DNA of 37,631 nucleotides from an uncultured Acidobacteriia bacterium (GTDB taxonomy: Bacteria; Acidobacteriota; Terriglobia; Bryobacterales; Bryobacteraceae): positions 1 to 37,631 of the forward strand of contig CAIYDY010000296.1 of the NCBI GenBank assembly GCA_903925015.1, in the 5' to 3' direction. A program made the translations under genes and the position numbers. Under the pieces are notes generated by a model. The model was given only the letters and a program-made list of their open reading frames with translations. It did no database searches and was not told the DNA's origin. Within the stretch, counting starts at the first letter, position 1. Every line of letters starts with the position of its first letter. Positions 2,014-31,132 of this stretch are shown piece after piece.

Positions 2014-2019
2014 TAGACT
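2014..2019 (+). promoter_or_regulatory. Candidate -10 element TAGACT, 6 bases before the S9 peptidase ATG
   Basis: TAGACT ends exactly 6 bases before the ATG at 2026, so transcription would start at or next to the start codon (leaderless mRNA). The flanking GCGCTAGACTC is identical to the sequence before the gene at 8822. No convincing -35 box is present at 16-18 bases; a TTGACC at 1983-1988 is 25 bases away and too far. Confidence 0.4.
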
Positions 2020-2025
2020 CCAACC

Positions 2026-4020
2026 ATGCGCGCAATCACGCTCATTCTCCTTTTCGCCACCAACCTGACCGGCCAGCGGCTTCTCAACTTGGACGACCTG
2101 AACCGGATTCAGACGGTCGGCCCGCCCCAAGTTTCCCCCGACGGCAAGTGGATCCTCTACACCGTCGGTACCGTTGACAAGGCGGGCGACAAACGGGAAA
2201 CACACGTCTGGATGGTCGGTTGGAACGGGGCGGACCGGATCCAGCTCACCAACGGCACCGACGGCGAGAGCGCCCCGAAGTGGACTCCCGACGGCAAGTC
2301 GATCACATTCCTTTCTTCCCGCCCCGGCAAGGCCAAGGGAACGCAAATCTGGTTGCTGGACCGCCGTGGCGGAGAAGCAGTCCAGATGACGGAACTCAAG
2401 GAGAACATCTCCGACTACCAGTGGTCGCCGGACTCCAAGCGCCTGGCGATGGTCCTGAAAGCCAAGGAAGATTCGGAGGCGGATGCCAAGCCGGGTGCCA
2501 CTCCAGCGCCGCCCAAACCGATCGTCCTCGACCGCTACCACTTCAAGCAGGACATTCAGGGCTATCTGACGGGCACAGCGCGTTCCCGGATCCATATCTA
2601 TGATGTTGTAGCGAAGAAGGCCGAACCATTGACCCCGCTTGAGACATTCGACGAACAGGGGCCCGTCTGGTCGCCCGACGGGACGCGGATTGCCTTCGTC
2701 AGCAACCGCTCGGAGGATTGGGACCGGTCCCGGCACACGGACGTTTGGGTGGCCGACGCCAAGCCGAAGGCCGAGCCAATGCGAATCACCAACTATTCCG
2801 GTCCCAACGGCGGGCGCCTGGCATGGAGTCCCGACGGAAAGCTGATCGCGTATACCCAAGGCAGCGAGTCCAAATTGAGCGCCTACAACCAGAACGTACT
2901 TGCGGTGGCACCGGTGGACGGCGGACCCACCCGGCTTCTGACCGAAAAATTGGATCGCGGCGTTTCGTCACCCGAATTTACGGTGGACGGCAAGGGAATC
3001 ATGTTCTTGGCTGCGGATGACCGTTCAGAATATCCGGCGCGGGTCAGCGTGGCCGGTGGCCCAGTGGAGAAACTCCTGCCAATGGGTCGGGTGGTCTCGG
3101 CGCAATCGAGCGGGGGCGGCCATACGGCGGTCCTGAGTTCCTCCGACACCACAGCTCCAGAAATTTTCGCGTTCGAAGGCGGGTCCCTACGCAAGCTGAC
3201 CGGACACAACGACGCCCTCTTCGCCGAGTTGAAACTGGGATCAGTGGAAGACATCTCGTTCAAGAGCAAGGATGGTACCGAAGTCCACGGTCTTCTTATG
3301 CGCCCGCCGGACTATGCGGCAGGTTCCAAGGTTCCGACACTTCTTCGCATCCACGGCGGTCCCAACGGCCAGGACGCACACCAGTTCTTCTTTGAAAACC
3401 AATTTTTCGCCGCGCACGGCTATGCGGTCATCGCGATCAACTACCGGGGCAGTTCGGGTCGCGGCCAGAATTACGGCAAGGCTATTTTCGCCGATTGGGG
3501 CCACTTTGAAGTGGAGGACCTGCTGGCAGGGGTCGACCATGTGGTGAAAATGGGCTTGGCCGATCCCGAAAAACTGGGAATCGGCGGCTGGAGCTACGGT
3601 GGTATTCTCACGGATTACACCATCGCAGGCGACCAGCGCTTCAAGGCCGCCATCAGCGGGGCCGGGTCCGCCAACCAAATCACGATGTACGGCATCGACC
3701 AGTACACGCTTCAATATGACCAGGAAATCGGCGCGCCGTGGACCAACCCACAGAAGTGGATCGACATCTCCTACGCCTTCTTCCATGCCGACCGCATCCA
3801 CACACCCACCCTGTTCATGGGCGGCGACAAGGATTTCAACGTCCCTGTCCAAGGCGGCGAGCAGATGTACCAGGCGCTGCAGAGCTTGAAGGTGCCGACC
3901 CAGATGGTCATTTATCCGGGCCAGTTCCATGGGATTACGCGTCCCAGTTTTGTGCGGGACCGGTTGGAGCGCTACGTCGCCTGGTACGACAAGTGGATGA
4001 AACCCGCCAAGTCGAACTGA
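2026..4020 (+). CDS. Secreted S9 family peptidase (prolyl-oligopeptidase type)
   Basis: The product (664 residues) starts with a short signal peptide (residues 1-17, ending LTGQ). It carries an N-terminal propeller built from WD40-like/PD40 repeats, recognised by repeated PDGK or PDG motifs (QVSPDGKWILY near 37, WTPDGKSITF near 87, VWSPDGTRIAF near 215, AWSPDGKLIAY near 267). The C-terminal alpha/beta-hydrolase domain runs from about residue 405 to the end. The triad is visible: Ser523 in GGWSYGG, Asp603 in GDKDFNVP and His635 in GQFHG. Family members cleave short peptides, often after proline or with dipeptidyl- or acylaminoacyl-peptidase specificity; the exact specificity here is not readable. 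It is followed after 20 bases by an M20 dipeptidase, which suggests joint extracytoplasmic and cytoplasmic peptide breakdown. Confidence 0.93.
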   Translation: MRAITLILLFATNLTGQRLLNLDDLNRIQTVGPPQVSPDGKWILYTVGTVDKAGDKRETHVWMVGWNGADRIQLTNGTDGESAPKWTPDGKSITFLSSRPGKAKGTQIWLLDRRGGEAVQMTELKENISDYQWSPDSKRLAMVLKAKEDSEADAKPGATPAPPKPIVLDRYHFKQDIQGYLTGTARSRIHIYDVVAKKAEPLTPLETFDEQGPVWSPDGTRIAFVSNRSEDWDRSRHTDVWVADAKPKAEPMRITNYSGPNGGRLAWSPDGKLIAYTQGSESKLSAYNQNVLAVAPVDGGPTRLLTEKLDRGVSSPEFTVDGKGIMFLAADDRSEYPARVSVAGGPVEKLLPMGRVVSAQSSGGGHTAVLSSSDTTAPEIFAFEGGSLRKLTGHNDALFAELKLGSVEDISFKSKDGTEVHGLLMRPPDYAAGSKVPTLLRIHGGPNGQDAHQFFFENQFFAAHGYAVIAINYRGSSGRGQNYGKAIFADWGHFEVEDLLAGVDHVVKMGLADPEKLGIGGWSYGGILTDYTIAGDQRFKAAISGAGSANQITMYGIDQYTLQYDQEIGAPWTNPQKWIDISYAFFHADRIHTPTLFMGGDKDFNVPVQGGEQMYQALQSLKVPTQMVIYPGQFHGITRPSFVRDRLERYVAWYDKWMKPAKSN

Positions 4021-5510: not shown

Positions 5511-8500
5511 ATGAAACGAATTTTACGGGTACTCGCCCTCGGTCTGGGCGCGGTCGCCCTGCCCATGTTGGCGCAAACGTTCGGTGAAATCACCGGACGT
5601 GTCACAGACGGTTCCGGTGCGGCAGTCGCCGGCGCCAAAATTACGGTGGTCAGCGTGGCCACCAACGCAGTTCGCGAAGTAGCCACGGGAAACAGCGGGG
5701 ACTACACATTCACTTCCCTTCTGCCTGGCACTTACAACCTGAAGGTCGTCAAGGAAGGTTTCAAGTCCGACGAGGGTAAGAACATCGCCCTCGAAGTCCA
5801 GCAGACGCTGCGCTTGGACTTCGTTCTGACCATCGGCCAAGTTTCCGAATCTGTCACCGTCGAGGCCAACGCGGTCCAACTGCAGGCCGAGAATGCGACG
5901 CTGGGCACGGTCATCGATAACAGGCGCATTGTGGAATTGCCCCTCAACGGGCGCAACTACCTCCAATTGGTTGCCCTGACCCCGAACGCGACGACGCTTT
6001 CGCCATCCGCAGGCCAAGCCGGCTCCCGCCAGGGCGGCGACCGCGCCAGCCAATCGATCGCGGTCTCCGGCCAGCGCATCATGTTCGACAACTTTACGCT
6101 GGACGGCGTCAACAATACCGACCCGAACTTCAACACCTACGTGGTATTGCCCTCGATCGACGCGTTGCAGGAGTTCAAGGTTCAGACGGGTGTCTACCCG
6201 GCCGAATTCGGCCATGAGGCGACCCAGATAAACGTATCCACCAAGTCGGGCGGCAACGCCTACCACGGCGCGCTTTTCGAATTCCTGCGCAACGACAAGT
6301 TCGACGCCAAGCCCTACGCCTTCACCAGCAACGCGCCCGTGAAGAGCCCGTTTAAGTGGAACCAGTACGGCTTTGAACTCGACGGCCCGGTCCGCATCCC
6401 AAAATTGTTCAACGGCAAGGACAAGCTGTTCTTCCTCGCCAACAACGAAAGCTTCCGCCAGCGCCGCAACTTCAATGGGATCTACACGGTGCCCACCGCC
6501 GCAATGTTCAACGGCGACTTCAGCGGCATCTCGAACGTAATCTACGACCCGGGCAGCAAGGCTCCGTTCGCGGGCAACGTGATTCCTGCCAGCCGAATTG
6601 ACCCGATCTCGAAGAAGCTCCTCCAGTACTACCCTGCCGCCAACATCTCGACGCCGAAGATTTCCAACAACTACCAGCGAGTCGGCAGTGCCCCCATCAA
6701 CAAGGATCAATTCATCCTCCGGATGGACTGGATTGAGTCGTCCAAATCGCAGTGGTCTGGCCGGTATAGCTGGGGCGACGAAAACCAGGCAAATACGGGC
6801 ATCAACCTGGACGGCACGAAGATCCTGACGAACTTCGAGCAGTACATGGGTTCCAACACGCGCACGTTCTCCGCCAATACGGTGAACGAAGCGCGCTTCG
6901 GCTACACCCGTTTCTACAACTCCATCGGCACCTACCTCGCCTTCAACGAAGATGTTGTGAGCAAGGTTGGAATCCCGGGCCTGAAGCCGGGCGATCCCGT
7001 GGTTTGGGGCATTCCGAACGTCACGTTGATCGGCTACAGCGGCTTCGGCGATAGCACGGAAGGCCCGTACGCGAACGACAACAACACGTTGCAGTTCGTG
7101 GACAACTTCTCTTGGATCCGTGGCAAGCACACCTTCCGGTTCGGCGGCGAATACCGGCGCGAGCAGTTCAACCAAGTCGGCAACCAGTTTGCGCGCGGCC
7201 AGTTCACCTTCCAACCCAACGCGACGCAGAATCCTACCTTGAAAAACAACGGCGACACGTGGGGCGACTATCTGCTGGGCGACCTGTACCAGTCGGAAGC
7301 CGCGGTTGCCATTGCCAGCGCCAATTTTAAGCGGACCGGGTGGTCGTTCTATCTAGACGATACTTGGAAGCTGACGCCGAAGATCACGCTGGCACTCGGT
7401 CTCCGTTACGAACTGACGCCTCCGTTCGAGGACACGCTCAAGAACGCGTTCTCCGTCGGGATTCCGTTCGAGGACCGCACACCGAATGTGACCGACAAGA
7501 GCCGCTACCCGTTCTTCATCCGTGCCGGCGGTAAATGCGCTGATCCCTACTCCGGTATCAGCATCCGTTGGCCGCAGATCACAACGGTCTGCGACGGCAG
7601 CTTGGGTACCCGGTTGGTCCAGACCGACTACAACGATTTCGCACCCCGCATCGGCATCACCTACTCGCCAGATTCAAAGTGGGTTGTCCGTACAGGTGCC
7701 GGCATGTTCTACAACCAGGACACCGGCAACCCGCGCTTCGACATGGCCCGCAATGTCGCTGGCCGTATCCGCGTGAATTCCGACCTGCAGAACCCGACCC
7801 TGTTCTGGACCAACGCACTCTCCAGCATTTCGGGCGGCGTAGCAAACATCACCAACCCCTACGCGTTCGCCAACAAGTACGACCGCCGTACCTCCTATTC
7901 CTGGGAGTACCTGTTCAATCTGCAAAGGCAATTGGGCAACAACTGGGTGGCCGAAGCCGGCTACCTCGGCTCGATCAGCCGCAAGCTGGAGTTCCTCAGG
8001 GCCGTCAACGAGTCCGTTCCCGGCACCGTGGGCAACCAAGCCGCGCGTGCTCCGTATCCGAATTTCGGCCGCATCCAATTGGTTGACAATTCGGGCAATG
8101 CCGCATACAACTCGGGTTTCGTCAAGATCACCAAGCGCTTCAGCAACGGCTTCACGCTGCTGAGTTCGTACACGTGGTCGCGATCGATGGATGATTCGAG
8201 CGGCATCCGCGTCCAAGGCCAGGATACCCTGTTCCCGCAGAACAGCTATTGCCGGAAGTGCGAGTGGGCGGCTGGCAGGCTGGCGGAATCTTGACCGTCC
8301 AGACCGGCTTCCCTGTGACGATCACGGTCGGCGGCGCGGACCGCTCCGGCACTGGCGGCGGCTACGACCGTCCCAATGCAACCGGCGTAACGCCCTACGT
8401 TTCCAATCCTGTTCCCTCCTTTTGGTGGGACAAGGCGGCCTTTACCGCCAACGCCGCAGGCACTTTCGGCAACGTCGGGCGCAATTCCTTGGTAGGACCG

Positions 8501-8809: not shown

Positions 8810-8815
8810 TAGACT
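8810..8815 (+). promoter_or_regulatory. Candidate -10 element TAGACT, 6 bases before the ATG at 8822
   Basis: TAGACT lies in the same GCGCTAGACTC context and at the same 6-base distance from the ATG as before the S9 peptidase. A weak -35-like TGTCAA is at 8786-8791 (18-base spacer). Because a strong terminator lies just upstream, this gene needs its own promoter, which supports the call. Confidence 0.45.
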
Positions 8816-8821
8816 CAAGGA

Positions 8822-9955
8822 ATGCGTACGCTCCTCGTTGCTATTTTTGCAAGTTTCCTGATTGCCTCAGCAGCGGCCCAGTCTTCCAAGGATTTTTCCG
8901 GGACCTGGACACTCGCGTCCGATGAAAGTTCCATCCGGGATTTCTCCGTTCCCCCAGCCCGCGTCCTTATCGTGGATCAAACGGCAGGCGCGCTGACGAT
9001 TACCGCGAGTTTGGAACCAGGCTTACCCACGACCAGAGTGGTTTATCCCTTGGACGGGACATCTCAAAAGAGCAGCGTTGGCGATTCGACTTGGAATGCA
9101 GTCTCGAAGTGGGAGGGCAGCGCACTCCTGATGAACATCATCGTGAGCGGCCCGCAGGATTATTCGTTGTTTGAACGGTGGAGCCGGTCCGGCGATGGAC
9201 GCCTAACAATCACCCGGACCGTGAACCGCACGAGTGGGGAGACGGAATCGATTTTCGTATACACGTCACCCCAAAGCAATCGCGATTTGCAGTCCGTCCA
9301 GACGCGGTCAACGGAATCTCCAAGACCGCCAGTGATCACGCCGCCGGCGCAGCCGATGAAGACAGACTACGTGGTGGCCTCGGGTAGGCGCATCCTGATG
9401 CGGCTGACCAACCCGGTGAACACAAAGCGGACAATGGCCGGAGACAGGGTGTATTTGCAGACTGCCGTGCCGGTGTTCGTGAACGGTCGACTGATCATTC
9501 CCCAAGGCAGTTATGTGACCGGAACCGTGACGGAGGCGGAGCGGGCCGGAAGGTTGAAGGGCAAGGCGGCCTTGAATTTGCGGTTCGAGTCCGTGACGCT
9601 GCCGAACGGCACCACGCGGGATTTCCGGGGTCGTGCGGGAAGCGTGGACTCACAAGGCCAATTGGACCGCACCGAGGGCCGAATCCAGGGTGAGGGCAAG
9701 GGTGGTGACGGCACCCGTCGGGTGGCGCAGACGACGGCGGCCGGGGCCGGACTTGGAACGATTGTCGGGGCGGCGACCGGGCATGTAGGTACTGGCCTCG
9801 GCGTAGGCGCGGCGGCGGGTGCAGCCGCTGGGTTGGCAAGTGTTTTCGGGTCAAGAGGAAACGATGTGGTGATCCCGCAAGGCACAACGATCGAACTGGT
9901 TCTAGACCGGGAGTTGGTGTTTACCGACGAGGACCTGCGTCAGCGGGTGCAATAG
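8822..9955 (+). CDS. Secreted two-domain protein of unknown function with glycine-rich segment
   Basis: The 377-residue product has a clear signal peptide (residues 1-20, ending SAAAQ). The first domain (about 22-145) starts with FSGTWTLASDESSIRDF, a lipocalin-like opening often seen in secreted Acidobacteriota proteins. The second domain (about 180-377) contains LMRLTNPVNTKRTMAGDRVYL, then IIPQGSYVTGTVTEAERAGR and a glycine/alanine-rich stretch (about 300-345) of glycine-zipper type. It ends with IPQGTTIELVLDRELVF. The paired phrases about an envelope-exposed beta domain and a small helical hairpin recall the C-terminal part of VirB10/TrbI-like proteins, but this is only a resemblance. No enzyme motif is seen. 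It is probably a single-gene unit between the terminator at 8739 and the riboswitch at 10014. Confidence 0.75.
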   Translation: MRTLLVAIFASFLIASAAAQSSKDFSGTWTLASDESSIRDFSVPPARVLIVDQTAGALTITASLEPGLPTTRVVYPLDGTSQKSSVGDSTWNAVSKWEGSALLMNIIVSGPQDYSLFERWSRSGDGRLTITRTVNRTSGETESIFVYTSPQSNRDLQSVQTRSTESPRPPVITPPAQPMKTDYVVASGRRILMRLTNPVNTKRTMAGDRVYLQTAVPVFVNGRLIIPQGSYVTGTVTEAERAGRLKGKAALNLRFESVTLPNGTTRDFRGRAGSVDSQGQLDRTEGRIQGEGKGGDGTRRVAQTTAAGAGLGTIVGAATGHVGTGLGVGAAAGAAAGLASVFGSRGNDVVIPQGTTIELVLDRELVFTDEDLRQRVQ

Positions 9956-9977: not shown

Positions 9978-10007
9978 TTGCGGGCCGCCGCATTCATGTG
10001 GTACTAA
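9978..10007 (+). promoter_or_regulatory. Candidate promoter of the cobalamin-uptake operon
   Basis: TTGCGG (9978-9983), an 18-base spacer and TACTAA (10002-10007) would start transcription close to 10014. That is exactly where the first pairing arm of the riboswitch begins. The position fits well; the boxes are only moderate matches. Confidence 0.45.
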
Positions 10008-10013
10008 TGAAGA

Positions 10014-10215
10014 CGCCCCAGGTGCCATAGCGCGGAGTCGCTCCGCGAAGGCCCAACAGGGAAGTCCGGTGAGAATCCGGCGCGGTCCCGCCACTGTGAG
10101 TGAGGATGCCGCTTTCACAACCACTCGGAGAATGACGCCGGGGAAGGGAAAGCGGTGGTTGGTCGTCCTTAGTCTGGACGCCGATACCTCCAAGCCAGGA
10201 GACCTGCCTAGGGTG
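10014..10215 (+). promoter_or_regulatory. Cobalamin (AdoCbl) riboswitch
   Basis: The segment carries the defining cobalamin-aptamer blocks in order: an outer arm with AGGTGCC (10020-10026), the core AACAGGGAA, CCGGTGAGAATCCGG and GCGGTCCCGCCACTGTGA, and the B12 box AGCCAGGAGACCTGCC (10193-10208). The closing arm CCTAGGGTG (10207-10215) pairs imperfectly with CGCCCCAGG (10014-10022). The switch lies directly before btuF-btuC-btuD, so repression of vitamin B12 import by intracellular adenosylcobalamin is expected. The expression platform is probably in 10216-10285. Confidence 0.96.
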
Positions 10216-10225
10216 ACGGTACGGC

Positions 10226-10286
10226 AATTTTCTGCGGAGAACAGAAAATGCGGAAAAACCCTTCAACTGGCGTGAATCGCCGGTGA
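10226..10286 (+). promoter_or_regulatory. Riboswitch expression platform with a 12-codon leader ORF and two hairpins
   Basis: TTTTCTG and CAGAAAA form a 7-bp hairpin whose loop (CGGAGAA) exposes a GGAG ribosome-binding site. Eight bases later an ATG (10248) opens a 12-codon frame (MRKNPSTGVNRR) that stops with TGA at 10284-10286. That stop overlaps the GTG start of btuF as GTGA. A second hairpin, CTGGCG/CGCCGG (10267-10283), covers the bases just before and including the first base of that GTG. The GTG itself has no good Shine-Dalgarno site. This suggests translational coupling or a leader-peptide step; alternatively the ATG is the real start and a base is missing or extra. Confidence 0.45.
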
Positions 10287-11260
10287 CCTCACGGTCTACA
10301 GTTTTGGCTTTGTTTGCGTCCGTAGCGCTGATCGCGGGCGCGGTGGATCGCTTTGTGTCTCCGCCGACGGGCCCGACTCTCGTGGAAACCGGCTATGGCC
10401 GGGCGGGTACCCGAATCGGGGGCCGAAGTTATCCCCGCGAGGCAGTTGACAGCGACGGTTTCCGGGTTCGAATCCCGGCACCCGCTCGGCGGATTGTGTC
10501 GCAATATTGGTCCATCGACGAGTACCTGTACTCGGTTGTACCGCCCGAACGGGTGGTATCGGTCAGCGAGAGTGCCTTCGTTGCCGGGGTCTCGAATGTT
10601 CTGGACTTGGCCCGCCGGTTTCGGCCGGTTCTGGCCGGGGATCCCGAGCGAGTCCTGCGCCAGAATCCAGACCTTATTTTGGTATCCAGCAGCAGCCGGT
10701 CGGATTTTGCCGGGCTGATCCGTCCAAGTGGCATTCCGGTGTACCGGATGTTCGTCGATTTCACGACTTTGGACCAGATCGAGGAATATATCCGGCTGGT
10801 AGGCTACTTGACCGGCGAGGACGCTCGCGCTGAGGAGGCGGCTATCCGGTTCCACACGACTGTGGAACATGCACGGTCCATGAGGCGACCGGGAGCGGCT
10901 GCGCCCAGGGTCTTGGGCTATACCGGTCAAAGTCACTACGGTTACGGCGCAAAGACGATGTTCGACGACATGGTACGGGTCGGAGGCGGGGTGAATGTGG
11001 CGGCTGAGCACGGCCTGGAGGGCTACGATGCCATCAACGCGGAGCAGATCGCGCGATGGAACCCGCAGTGGATCGTGTCCGGGGCGGATTTCAACCAGAT
11101 CGATGCTACGCGTAGCCGAATTCTAGCCGACCCAGGTGTTGCTTTGACCGATGCGGGCCGCACCGGGCACGTGCTGGTGCTCCCTAACAACGTCTTCCTG
11201 CCGATGTCGCCCTATGCCGCAACCCGTCTCACCGCAATTTCGGAGGCCTTGTGGAAATGA
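10283..11260 (+). CDS. btuF: Cobalamin ABC transporter substrate-binding protein
   Basis: The 325-residue product belongs to the periplasmic-binding-protein type 2 (BtuF/FepB/FhuD) fold. It has an N-terminal hydrophobic segment (about 5-22) that acts as a signal peptide or anchor. Typical elements are ARRIVSQYWSIDEYLYSVVPPERVVSVS (lobe 1), QNPDLILVSSSSR, IPVYRMF, the long bridging helix, and lobe 2 with MVRVGGGVNVAAEHGLEGYDAINAEQIARWNPQWIVSGA. The riboswitch upstream points to cobalamin rather than iron-siderophore cargo; the family alone would allow both. The annotated start is GTG, overlapping the leader ORF's stop. The 3' end overlaps btuC as ATGA, so the three genes form a tight operon. 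Confidence 0.9.
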   Translation: MTSRSTVLALFASVALIAGAVDRFVSPPTGPTLVETGYGRAGTRIGGRSYPREAVDSDGFRVRIPAPARRIVSQYWSIDEYLYSVVPPERVVSVSESAFVAGVSNVLDLARRFRPVLAGDPERVLRQNPDLILVSSSSRSDFAGLIRPSGIPVYRMFVDFTTLDQIEEYIRLVGYLTGEDARAEEAAIRFHTTVEHARSMRRPGAAAPRVLGYTGQSHYGYGAKTMFDDMVRVGGGVNVAAEHGLEGYDAINAEQIARWNPQWIVSGADFNQIDATRSRILADPGVALTDAGRTGHVLVLPNNVFLPMSPYAATRLTAISEALWK

Positions 11261-12324
11261 TTCCTGGTGGCAGACTGCGGATTGGGCTGTTTTACGGCGT
11301 GCTGGTTCCGGCGCTGATGGTAGCGGCCTTGATCGCGGTGGGGATTGGAAGCACCCCGCTTTCGTGGCAAACGATCCTGCGTGTGTGTGCCATCAAAATG
11401 TTGCCTCAACAGTGGTTGGCGGCGATTGGCTTTGATTTTTCCGACATCAGCGCCACCGACCAGCTGGTTGTCTGGATTATCCGAATTCCCCGCGTCCTGG
11501 TAGCTGCGGTGGTCGGTGCGGGCTTGGGTACGGCCGGCGCGATCATGCAGGGTCTGTTCCGCAATCCTCTGGCGGAACCAGGACTGATGGGGATAGGGCC
11601 TGGAGCGGCTCTGGGCGGGGTTTTGGCGTTTGTGACGGGCTGGGGTGCGAAATCGGTGCTTCCAGTGCCGATGCTCGCGATGGCCGGGGCAATGGCGGCC
11701 CTGATATTGGTGTACGCAATGTCCACGCGGGGCGGTGTGACGCCGATGTCCACGTTGCTCTTGGCTGGGGTTGCGACAGGTTCATTTGTATCAGCCTTCA
11801 CAAGCCTGTTGTTGACACTGAATGTGGCGAATTGGCAGGTCGCCCAGGAAGTTCTTTTCTGGATGATGGGTGGGCTCGATTCGCGGACTTGGACGCATTT
11901 CTGGTTATGCGCGCCGTTCGTGGGGGTGGGCCTTTGCTCGGGGCTGTATTCGGCGCGTGATTTGGATTTGTTGATGCAGGGCGAGGAAACTGCGGCATCC
12001 CTGGGTGTGGATGTGGAGTCGGCAAAACGTGGCTTGGCTGTGACGGTGGCGATTCTGACGGGCGCGTCGGTTGCAGTTGCCGGAATGGTGGGATTTGTCG
12101 GCTTGCTGGTGCCGCATGCGGTACGTCTCTTGCTGGGGCCGTCTCACCGCGTGGTGCTGCCCGCTTCAGCCATGGGCGGTGCACTGTTCCTGATCGTTTG
12201 CGATCTGGCGGCGCGGACGATTCACCCGCCCGTCGAAATTCGGCTGGGCGTAATTACGGCGCTGTGCGGAGGGCCATTCTTTTTGCTGTTGCTGCTGAGG
12301 CACTACCGCGAGGCCAGCTTGTGA
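11257..12324 (+). CDS. btuC: Cobalamin ABC transporter permease (FecCD family)
   Basis: This is a polytopic membrane protein of about 355 residues with the FecCD/BtuC pattern of about ten helices. Recognisable blocks are WIIRIPRVLVAAVVGAGLG, GAIMQGLFRNPLAEPGLMGIGPGAALG, the stretch FWMMGGLDSRTW, and near the end GFVGLLVPHAVRLLLGPSHR, the region that contacts the ATPase. It should form the homodimeric channel in the inner membrane together with BtuD. The ATG at 11257 overlaps the btuF stop (ATGA). A GTG at 11251 in the same frame is an alternative, with CGGAGG at 11241-11246 serving either. It overlaps btuD as GTGA. Confidence 0.92.
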   Translation: MIPGGRLRIGLFYGVLVPALMVAALIAVGIGSTPLSWQTILRVCAIKMLPQQWLAAIGFDFSDISATDQLVVWIIRIPRVLVAAVVGAGLGTAGAIMQGLFRNPLAEPGLMGIGPGAALGGVLAFVTGWGAKSVLPVPMLAMAGAMAALILVYAMSTRGGVTPMSTLLLAGVATGSFVSAFTSLLLTLNVANWQVAQEVLFWMMGGLDSRTWTHFWLCAPFVGVGLCSGLYSARDLDLLMQGEETAASLGVDVESAKRGLAVTVAILTGASVAVAGMVGFVGLLVPHAVRLLLGPSHRVVLPASAMGGALFLIVCDLAARTIHPPVEIRLGVITALCGGPFFLLLLLRHYREASL

Positions 12325-13112
12325 GGTTGGAAGCGGTATCGGTATCGATCGAGCGAGGCGGACGGCGGATTTTGGACGCAGCAAGTCTTCGTTTGGAGCC
12401 CGGCAAGTTCACAGCGTTGATCGGTCCCAATGGAAGTGGGAAGAGTACGCTGTTGCGGGCGTTGGCCGGCTTGTGGCCGGTTTCGTCGGGCGAGGTCCTG
12501 TTGGACGGGCAGCCTATTCGCAGGTTGCCGCGTCGAACGGTCGCCCGGAGCGTGGCATTTGTTCCGCAAGATACTAGGATCGATTTCGCGTTCACAGTAG
12601 AGGAGTTGGTGTCGATGGGGCGCCACCCCCACCGGGGGCGCTTTGCGGGGGAAACTGTCACGGACAGGCGGGCCGTGGACGAGGCTCTGGAACGCTGCGA
12701 TGTCACCTACCTCCGGTCACGCGCGGCGAATGCATTGTCGGGCGGCGAGCGTCAGCGGGTGTTGATTGCACGCAGTTTGGCGGCGCAGCCGGACGCCATC
12801 TTGCTGGACGAGCCCACCGCCAACTTGGATATCGAGCATGCGCTCGACATTTTGGAACTGTGCCGGGAGCTGGCAGACGATGGCCATGCAGTGGCAGTGG
12901 CTCTTCATGACTTGAATGCGGTGGCCCGCTACGCGCACGTGGTGGCGCTGATGGCCGGTGGCCTTGTCGCGGGCGTGGGAACTGTGGCAGAAGTTCTACG
13001 GCCGGACGAGATTCGTCGAATATTCGGCGTCGAAGCGAACGCTTCAATGGCTGCGGACGGCTCCCCCTACTTTCTGTTCGACAGACTCGACTACGGGCAC
13101 ATGAGACACTGA
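12321..13112 (+). CDS. btuD: Cobalamin ABC transporter ATP-binding protein
   Basis: The 263-residue ATPase shows all ABC motifs: Walker A GPNGSGKST (about residues 36-44), the Q-loop FVPQDTR, signature LSGGERQRV, Walker B ILLDEPT and the switch histidine in ALHD. It belongs to the FepC/BtuD type. I chose the GTG at 12321 because it overlaps the btuC stop (GTGA) and starts right at the first strand VRLEAVSVSI. The frame is open further upstream to 12198, but that would overlap btuC by more than 100 bases. The gene ends within a few bases of the RNase P RNA. Confidence 0.93.
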   Translation: MRLEAVSVSIERGGRRILDAASLRLEPGKFTALIGPNGSGKSTLLRALAGLWPVSSGEVLLDGQPIRRLPRRTVARSVAFVPQDTRIDFAFTVEELVSMGRHPHRGRFAGETVTDRRAVDEALERCDVTYLRSRAANALSGGERQRVLIARSLAAQPDAILLDEPTANLDIEHALDILELCRELADDGHAVAVALHDLNAVARYAHVVALMAGGLVAGVGTVAEVLRPDEIRRIFGVEANASMAADGSPYFLFDRLDYGHMRH

Positions 13113-13114
13113 AG

Positions 13115-13490
13115 CTGACAGGTGCTGGACGGATGGCCGCCCGCTTCGGCGGGAGGAAAGTCCGGTCTCCACAGGGCAGCGTGCCGGCTAACGGCCGGGG
13201 GGGGCCTCTCAAAGGGGCTTTTACGGAAAGTGCCACAGAAAATGTACCGCCGCTGGTCCTTTTGGATCGGCGGTAAGGGTGAAAAGGTGCGGTAAAAGCG
13301 CACCGCGGACGGGGTAACCCGGCTGGCAGGGCAAACCCCACGCGGAGCAAGACCAAATAGGGGAGGAGGAGTGGCCCGCTCCGTCATACTTCCGGGTAGG
13401 TCGCTAGAGCTGTCCAGTAATGGGCAGCCTTGATGAATGGTCATCGCCCGCAAGGGTACAGAAACCGGCTTATAGGCCAGTGCCTGTTTT
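13115..13490 (+). ncRNA. rnpB: RNase P RNA (class A)
   Basis: The P1 arm CAGGTGCTGG (13120-13129) pairs with CCAGTGCCTG (13477-13486). Between them are the universally conserved blocks GAGGAAAGTCCGG, CACAGGGCAG, the segment GGTAAGGGTGAAAAGGTGCGGTAA-like (13273-13297), GAGCAAGACCAAATAGGG and GATGAATGGTCATC, then ACAGAAACCGGCTTATAGGCC. A TTTTTCTTT run ends the gene. The ends are accurate to a few bases. It starts only about 3-8 bases after btuD, so its promoter must lie inside btuD or it is processed from the B12 operon transcript. Confidence 0.97.
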
Positions 13491-17243: not shown

Positions 17244-17720
17244 TCAGGTTTTTCTCCGTTGCTCGAAAAACCGCTGGAGCAACTCGGTTGCCTCGCCTCC
17301 AAGAATCCCCTCCACGATCTCCACCCGATGGTTCAAGAGCGGCGAATCGGCAATCTGGAACTTGCTCCGCACGCCACCAAACCGCAGATCCCGGGCTCCG
17401 AAAACGAGGGTTCCGATCCGGGCCGCCACCAACGCGCCGGCGCACATCGGACATGGCTCAAGAGTGGAATAGAGCGTGGCCGATTCCAAGCGGTAGTTCC
17501 CCAGAGCCAACGCGCCCTGACGCAGGGCAAGTACTTCGGCATGTGCGGTGGGGTCCAACAGTCCGATCGGCGAATTCCGCCCGCTACCAATGAGCTCGCC
17601 ATCGGCTACGAGGACGCAGCCAACCGGCACTTCCCCCGCCTCGGCAGCCTCCCTGGCCAGGGACAAGGCCAACCCCATCCAATACCCGTGGCGGTTTCTT
17701 TCGTCCTCTAGACTGGACAT
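17244..17720 (-). CDS. tadA: tRNA-specific adenosine deaminase
   Basis: The 158-residue protein has the cytidine-deaminase-fold zinc site of TadA: HAEV (His and catalytic Glu) in DPTAHAEVLALR, and PCPMCAGAL carrying the two zinc cysteines. GEVPVGCVLV opens the core and FGARDLRFGGVRS follows the zinc site, both typical for TadA. It converts adenosine 34 to inosine in tRNA-Arg(ACG); a guanine or nucleoside deaminase relative is less likely. The first ATG (17720) is directly back to back with the ATG of the divergent gene at 17721. A second ATG at 17678 (MGLALSLAREAA) is a credible alternative start. Confidence 0.9.
   Translation of the reverse strand: MSSLEDERNRHGYWMGLALSLAREAAEAGEVPVGCVLVADGELIGSGRNSPIGLLDPTAHAEVLALRQGALALGNYRLESATLYSTLEPCPMCAGALVAARIGTLVFGARDLRFGGVRSKFQIADSPLLNHRVEIVEGILGGEATELLQRFFEQRRKT
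17709..17714 (+). promoter_or_regulatory. Candidate -10 element TAGACT, 6 bases before the ATG at 17721
   Basis: This is the third occurrence of TAGACT-N6-ATG in the window. It lies inside the first codons of the divergent tadA frame. No recognisable -35 box is found at the normal distance. Confidence 0.42.
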
Positions 17721-18230
17721 ATGCGATCAACCCTGCTTTTCCTATTGTGCGGTGCGACCCTCCTCCTCGCCGAGTCCGCAGCGGGACTCTCCTGGTCAAC
17801 TCCCGCAGGGTGGATTTCCAAGGGTTCGGCACCAATGCGGGCGGCCAACTACACGGTTGGCGATGCCGAATGCGTTGTATATTTTTTCGGAGCAGGACAA
17901 GGCGGGGGCGTAGAGGCCAACCTTGCCCGATGGAAGGGTCAGTTTACGGTCAACGGACAACCTGCCCCGGCCAAGACGTCGACCCGGAAGGTCAATGGGT
18001 TAAGCGTGACCGAAATGGACGTGACCGGGGTGTACGCGGCGACGGGCGGGGCCATGTCGGGCGGCGGGGCGATGTCCACTCAGACCCCAAAGGCTGGAAC
18101 CCGGATGCTCACAGCCATTGTTGAGGGTCCGGGAGGTAATCTCTTTGTGAAGTTTACCGGTCCGGAGAAGACCGTAACCGGGAACTCGGCGAAGTTCCAA
18201 GCCCTGGTCAGCTCCTTCCATAAGGAATAG
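17721..18230 (+). CDS. Small secreted protein of unknown function
   Basis: A 169-residue product with a clear signal peptide (residues 1-21, MRSTLLFLLCGATLLLAESAA start region) containing a Cys at position 10. The mature part opens with LSWSTPAGWISKGSAPMRAANY, then GDAECVVYFFGAGQGGGVEANLARW. A glycine/methionine-rich loop lies near residues 110-122 and the end is FVKFTGPEKTVTGNSAKFQALVSSF. The layout resembles small secreted proteins of Acidobacteriota and Planctomycetes that carry a W..P..W opening and a C-terminal helix, but I recognise no named domain. It is one base apart from the YdcF-like gene at 18232 and is probably co-transcribed with it. Function unknown. Confidence 0.75.
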   Translation: MRSTLLFLLCGATLLLAESAAGLSWSTPAGWISKGSAPMRAANYTVGDAECVVYFFGAGQGGGVEANLARWKGQFTVNGQPAPAKTSTRKVNGLSVTEMDVTGVYAATGGAMSGGGAMSTQTPKAGTRMLTAIVEGPGGNLFVKFTGPEKTVTGNSAKFQALVSSFHKE

Positions 18231-27782: not shown

Positions 27783-27885
27783 CAGGTCTCGGGCTCCGTG
27801 CAATGGGCGGCTGCAAACCCCGCCAGGTTCGGAAGGAAGCAACGGTAGTGGTTCAGCCCGTGTGCCGCGGATTACCCGGGGCCTG
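27783..27885 (+). ncRNA. ffs: Signal recognition particle RNA (4.5S type)
   Basis: The ends CAGGTCTCGGG (27783-27793) and CCCGGGGCCTG (27875-27885) pair over 11 bp with two G-U pairs. Between them is the universal SRP apical motif AGGTTCGGAAGGAAGCAACGG (27825-27845 region, with GGAAGGAAGCA in the middle), which binds Ffh. The length of about 103 nt fits a short bacterial SRP RNA. It stands immediately before dnaX, as in several other phyla. Confidence 0.95.
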
Positions 27886-31126: not shown

Positions 31127-31132
31127 ATTATC
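31127..31132 (-). promoter_or_regulatory. Candidate -10 element GATAAT, 6 bases before the DinB-fold ATG
   Basis: On the minus strand GATAAT is followed by CGGAAG and the ATG at 31120. This repeats the 6-base spacing of the three TAGACT cases, within the short gap after the upstream gene. The CGGAAG is also a poor Shine-Dalgarno site. Confidence 0.4.

Follow-up and report, generated by a model that had tools for sequence, protein, structure and literature searches.

The stretch of DNA that we analyzed, all 37,631 nt of which we call the window, carries the hexamer TAGACT followed, after six bases, by ATG at three places on the + strand (positions 2014–2028, 8810–8824 and 17709–17723), and a pattern search found no further TAGACT-N6-ATG elsewhere in the window. 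The first hexamer (2014–2019, + strand) stands before a gene for an S9 (prolyl oligopeptidase family) peptidase (2026–4020, + strand; PF00326, E = 1e-47), whose called start is the ATG at 2026, and it falls within a 68-base gap that separates this gene from a divergent tRNA gene on the other strand (1886–1957). The second (8810–8815, + strand) precedes a gene for a 377-residue protein (8822–9955, + strand) with a signal-peptide-like N-terminus and a weak YMGG-like glycine-zipper match below the curated cut-off, and the third (17709–17714, + strand) precedes a gene for a 169-residue protein (17721–18230, + strand), also with a signal-peptide-like N-terminus, that gave no Pfam match. For this last gene our gene finder chose a start 38 codons downstream; its homologues favor 17721. 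On the strength of the pattern search and of homologues, each hexamer is proposed as a -10 box, with the A of the ATG at 2026 as the predicted RNA start for the S9 gene.

Scanning 120 bases upstream of each gene gave TAGACT as the sole TANNNT. No Shine-Dalgarno-like four-mer was found at a normal distance before 2026, 8822 or 17721 (an AAGG at -5 before 8822 is too close to serve), whereas such a four-mer is present before 5511, 19000 and 36032, and GAGGAG stands before 33789. The contexts of 2026 and 8822 have GCGCTAGACTC in common. An earlier, sequence-only reading of this DNA had drawn attention to the three sites, to poor Shine-Dalgarno sequences before these genes as opposed to good ones before the other four, and to an identical context for two of the genes; our pattern search, four-mer scan and comparison of the two contexts agree with it on all of these points.

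Several other features of the window were seen along the way. The gene for an Oar/TonB-like outer-membrane protein that begins at 5511 ends at 8294, and a frame one base off carries the expected C-terminal sequence on to 8716; a frameshift, possibly together with a small deletion, appears to interrupt the 5511–8716 gene, and could come from the assembly or from the organism. A cobalamin riboswitch (10003–10225) precedes three genes on the + strand (region 10003–13112) whose products, as we read them, would form a vitamin B12 importer from a periplasmic binding protein, a permease and an ATPase. A full-length class A RNase P RNA gene lies at 13121–13488. A small SRP RNA gene (27787–27884) extends across 27862, the GTG called as the start of a DnaX-like gene, and the true start of the latter is therefore probably further downstream.

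Taken alone, the window makes a weak case that the three boxes are not there by chance. In shuffled windows TAGACT-N6-ATG occurred on average 0.06 times, and three sites were reached in 0 of 100 shuffles; the hexamer, however, was picked post hoc, after it had been seen in the window, and the looser TANNNT-N6-ATG shows no excess there (six observed against a mean of 3.94 expected, with at least six in 22 shuffles), which is why we call the case weak. Genome-wide there are 14 TAGACT-N6-ATG sites, compared with five for the reversed pattern. At five of the 14 the ATG is exactly a called start, at two (one being the 17721 gene) the called start lies later in frame, and at seven there is no gene in frame. 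We also counted the pattern across 41 genomes (483 matches vs. 408 for the reversed control), but set these counts aside as evidence, since an ATG counted in this way need not be a gene start.

A second analysis was anchored on genes. We took the first 20 kb of each of contigs C1–C83 of the same genome, with further pieces of C39, C35 and C17 (89 pieces, 1.065 Mb), and excluded the window and pieces of C92, C158, C230, C259, C294, C341, C373 and C400; earlier profiles were dropped, having included contigs chosen for holding TAGACT-N6-ATG and being thus biased toward the hypothesis. Starts came from a home-made, codon-usage gene finder that is blind to upstream signals, and whose calls include at least one misplaced start, that of the 17721 gene; 705 of the 756 called genes were usable. 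Against a background of 5.57 per offset, TANNNT with its first T at -12 was found at 25 of the 705 starts (P = 1e-9), with 23 at -14, 23 at -15 and a dip to 12 at -13. Summed over -17 to -11, the count was 121 where 39 were expected, an excess equal to 11.6% of genes, and no comparable peak appeared at internal ATGs used as a control (4985 in-frame, 4532 out-of-frame). The sequence-only reading had suggested a search of this kind, and enrichment at the offset it named was indeed present. A further sample points the same way with less force: among loci named by their genome record, with S9 genes excluded, TANNNT at -15 to -11 preceded 19 of 194 starts (7.7 expected), a weaker excess. Samples from other single genomes of the phylum were too small for a judgment: in G117 the motif preceded 7 of 61 starts (1.9 expected; P = 0.003), and in G121, G102, G094, G119 and G126 (22–43 starts each) the counts were non-significant.

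The rise at these offsets was confined to TANNAT and TANNCT, TANNGT and TANNTT remaining flat, and TANAAT or TANACT made up 44 of the 97 boxes at -15 to -11 as against 38 of 214 hexamers further upstream. This preference for A in the fourth place and for A or C in the fifth suits a -10 box. Other promoter-like signals were looked for. In the genome sample no -35 element was enriched upstream of TANNNT genes, and TGn was in no excess before the box (17/97 vs. 28/214 background hexamers). A look for purines at the predicted RNA start of boxes at -14 or -15 gave no lead. Shine-Dalgarno-like sites, scored by a loose criterion that 206 of the 705 starts pass, occurred in 4 of 97 TANNNT genes and in 202 of 608 others. 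An equally placed control motif gave a like scarcity (3/61 vs. 203/644), so we do not count this as independent support, and for the same reason the lack of a Shine-Dalgarno site at the three window genes is weak evidence by itself.

We then compared the stretches upstream of homologous genes. For the S9 peptidase, 33 loci were used. The window's family supplied 17, among them the window's own gene, and another 16 were distinct, named loci from acidobacteria of unverified class (Granulicella, Edaphobacter, Occallatibacter, Acidobacteriaceae including KBS 89, and unclassified bins); three of an original 36 were left out, one as a fragment (L092) and two (L172 and L174) because their upstream stretches duplicate those of L084 and L086. 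In 32 of the 33, own gene included, an in-frame start has TANNNT at -17 to -11, the sole exception (L076) belonging to the same genus as the window. The box lay at -13 or -12 in 27 of the 32, and the start was ATG in 31 and GTG in one. Two features for which the boxes had not been selected also stood out, namely C in the fifth place (28/32) and a preceding TGn (20/32 vs. 28/214 background hexamers), the latter in 14 of 16 named loci and 6 of 16 family loci. The commonest place of the S9 box was -13 (14/32), yet this is the offset at which the sample from the window's own genome shows its dip.

The 17721 gene likewise showed a box at -17 to -11 in 12 of 17 homologues, and the 8822 gene in 7 of the 13 that are full-length, own gene included in each case; for the latter, 13 of 30 loci were counted as full-length, L102 and L107–L122 matching the C-terminal half only. 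When starts were restricted to ATG and the box to -14 to -11, 28 of 33 S9 loci still qualified, as did 11 of 17 homologues of the 17721 gene and 6 of 13 of the 8822 gene. No -35 match beyond that of shuffles was seen before homologues. In all 12 boxed homologues of the 17721 gene (within L123–L139) a G directly follows the hexamer, possibly a gene-specific preference. The homologues in these counts share descent, so the rows are not independent events. A search of the phylum gave 29 further S9 homologues (27–55% identity), many of them likely paralogues and one (L233) from the window's class; two of these had TANNNT, 21 a Shine-Dalgarno-like four-mer and six neither, and the six closest among them (L208–L213) divided into one, two and three, respectively. 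What is observed directly is that the boxes exist, that they are in excess at particular positions, that they prefer certain bases and that they are conserved.

The sequence-only reading had counted a fourth case, a DinB-fold gene on the - strand (ATG 31120) with GATAAT at 31127–31132, which we considered and rejected. GATAAT lacks the first T of the motif, and no TANNNT was found in the 120 bases upstream of the gene. Of 30 homologous loci, one (L151) was dropped for want of an upstream stop; the remaining 29, own gene included, comprised three with TANNNT, 14 with a Shine-Dalgarno-like four-mer and 12 with neither.

We consider it probable that the three TAGACT hexamers are -10 boxes of leaderless or nearly leaderless genes starting at 2026, 8822 and 17721. 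The earlier proposal of a -10 box giving a leaderless start is in this respect strengthened for these three genes by the genome-wide excess, the base preference and the homologues, and falls away for the DinB-fold gene. From the same evidence we infer that RNA polymerase uses the boxes, where RNA would start and that translation would be leaderless. TAGACT would act as the -10 element of a sigma-70-type promoter with no recognizable -35 box, and, given the six-base distance from its last T to the A of the ATG, RNA would start at that A or a few bases from it. On such an mRNA, with neither a leader nor a Shine-Dalgarno site, the ribosome would take the 5′-terminal AUG directly, a way of working reported on the basis of experiments in Deinococcus (PMC12340547) and of mapped starts in M. 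tuberculosis (PMC3898074). Boxes at -14 and -15 would, at the same spacing, give leaders of two or three bases. The genome would then have two modes of initiation, with about one-tenth of genes having a -10 box against the start codon and others a Shine-Dalgarno site.

A strictly leaderless start is a narrower claim, and the shape of the genome-wide peak counts against it, since the peak is not restricted to -12 and is equally high at -15 and -14, so that leaders of 2–3 bases or variable spacing are possible. The same breadth, from -17 to -11, leaves room for short leaders in an alternative reading, in which the boxes are real promoters but the true start codon is elsewhere, or a leadered promoter further upstream dominates, and the genes are not leaderless in practice. 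The gene finder's preference for a start 38 codons later in the 17721 gene would fit this as well. Against it, most S9 homologues hold the box at -13 or -12 of a start that is in frame, the three window genes have no second TANNNT in their 120 upstream bases, and the N-termini read from the proposed ATGs look like signal peptides; on balance we regard this alternative as unlikely.

We also asked whether the boxes might form a promoter class of their own that serves secreted proteins, which the heading of the sequence-only reading suggests. All three window genes have signal-peptide-like N-termini, and the earlier statement that all four products, the DinB-fold protein included, carry signal peptides fits our own reading of the sequences by eye. 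About a quarter of genes in the genome sample (192/705) pass the crude rule by which we scored signal peptides, however, so three such genes noticed post hoc are no strong sign. By this rule signal peptides were not enriched in the genome sample (30/97 TANNNT genes vs. 162/608 others; p = 0.39). Subset tests gave scattered hints in favor. Among nine TAGACT-N6-ATG sites resembling gene starts, six had a signal-peptide-like product by reading (binomial P = 0.016), but outside the window the figure was three of six (P = 0.21). First genes of a unit without a Shine-Dalgarno-like site gave 19/62 vs. 49/256 (p = 0.057), but a control motif gave as large a trend among first genes (17/43 vs. 98/380; p = 0.07). 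TANNAT at -13 to -12 gave 8 of 16 (p = 0.048), as one of many subsets tried, while TANNCT at -15 to -11 gave 12 of 32 (p = 0.22) and TAGACT there 0 of 3. From the overall comparison and these subsets, we rejected enrichment of the box before genes for secreted proteins, and find a special promoter class of this kind very improbable. Chance, as a post hoc match of a short, AT-rich motif in a single window, would fit the lack of a TANNNT-N6-ATG excess in the window, the half of the genome-wide TAGACT-N6-ATG sites without a called gene in frame and the modest difference from the reversed control across 41 genomes, but the gene-anchored excess and the conservation before homologues of all three genes leave it hardly credible for the three TAGACT boxes; to the GATAAT of the DinB-fold gene it does apply.

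The leaderless or nearly leaderless reading of the three genes bears on a prediction already in print. TA-led (leaderless) genes were predicted in three of three Acidobacteria genomes, at a mean of 13.3% of genes (range 9.7–19.4%), and the cellular processes categories generally had lower leaderless shares across all genomes (Zheng et al., 2011; PMC3160421); the term “signal peptide” is absent from the main text of that paper. The sequence-only reading had treated leaderless use in Acidobacteriota as inference, and in doing so overlooked this prediction, itself made from sequence; it was right in that our literature search, which covered only a minority of subscription papers, returned no mapped transcription starts (dRNA-seq or Cappable-seq) for Acidobacteriota. 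Within the same limits, PMC3160421 was the only paper joining Acidobacteria with leaderless genes and transcription start sites. Leaderless genes in Acidobacteria having been predicted before, what is added here is gene-by-gene conservation, chiefly of the putative TANNCT-type box before one S9 peptidase, and the apparent preference of that box for C is the most unusual point. A more speculative idea, which we hold to be doubtful, is that a (TGn)TANNCT, -10-only leaderless promoter has been kept before one S9 peptidase across the orders of this class, with related genes elsewhere in the phylum mostly Shine-Dalgarno-led, and that the fifth-place C marks a distinct promoter subclass (through use of a main sigma variant or an alternative sigma) tying the gene to leaderless translation.

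Leaderless mRNAs bypass the Shine-Dalgarno step, and genes with a widely conserved box, the S9 peptidase above all, offer a direct and cheap test case for Acidobacteriota. Boxes of the TANNAT or TANNCT type at -15 to -11 can also help annotators to pick the right start codon.

Our observations resemble those of Zheng et al. (2011; PMC3160421) in that TANNNT lies about 12 bases before the start codon, and the 11.6% excess agrees with their range; they differ in that the prediction described in the accessible text of that paper was made from gene starts alone, whereas here homologues of single genes were compared. The -10-motif genes of Deinococcus-Thermus likewise carry TANNNT next to the ORF and mostly lack a -35 region, and experiments there have shown that this motif drives the transcription of leaderless genes (PMC12340547). 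That system belongs to another phylum and takes in more of the ORFs (on average about 30%), and the acidobacterial boxes are predicted from sequence. In Mycobacterium tuberculosis, mapped starts show that 26% of the genes for which a primary start is known are leaderless, and there too the -10 motif is TANNNT while no -35 motif is conserved (Cortes et al., 2013; PMC3898074). TGn precedes TANNNT in 7% of cases there, compared with 17 of 97 in our genome sample and 20 of 32 S9 homologues.
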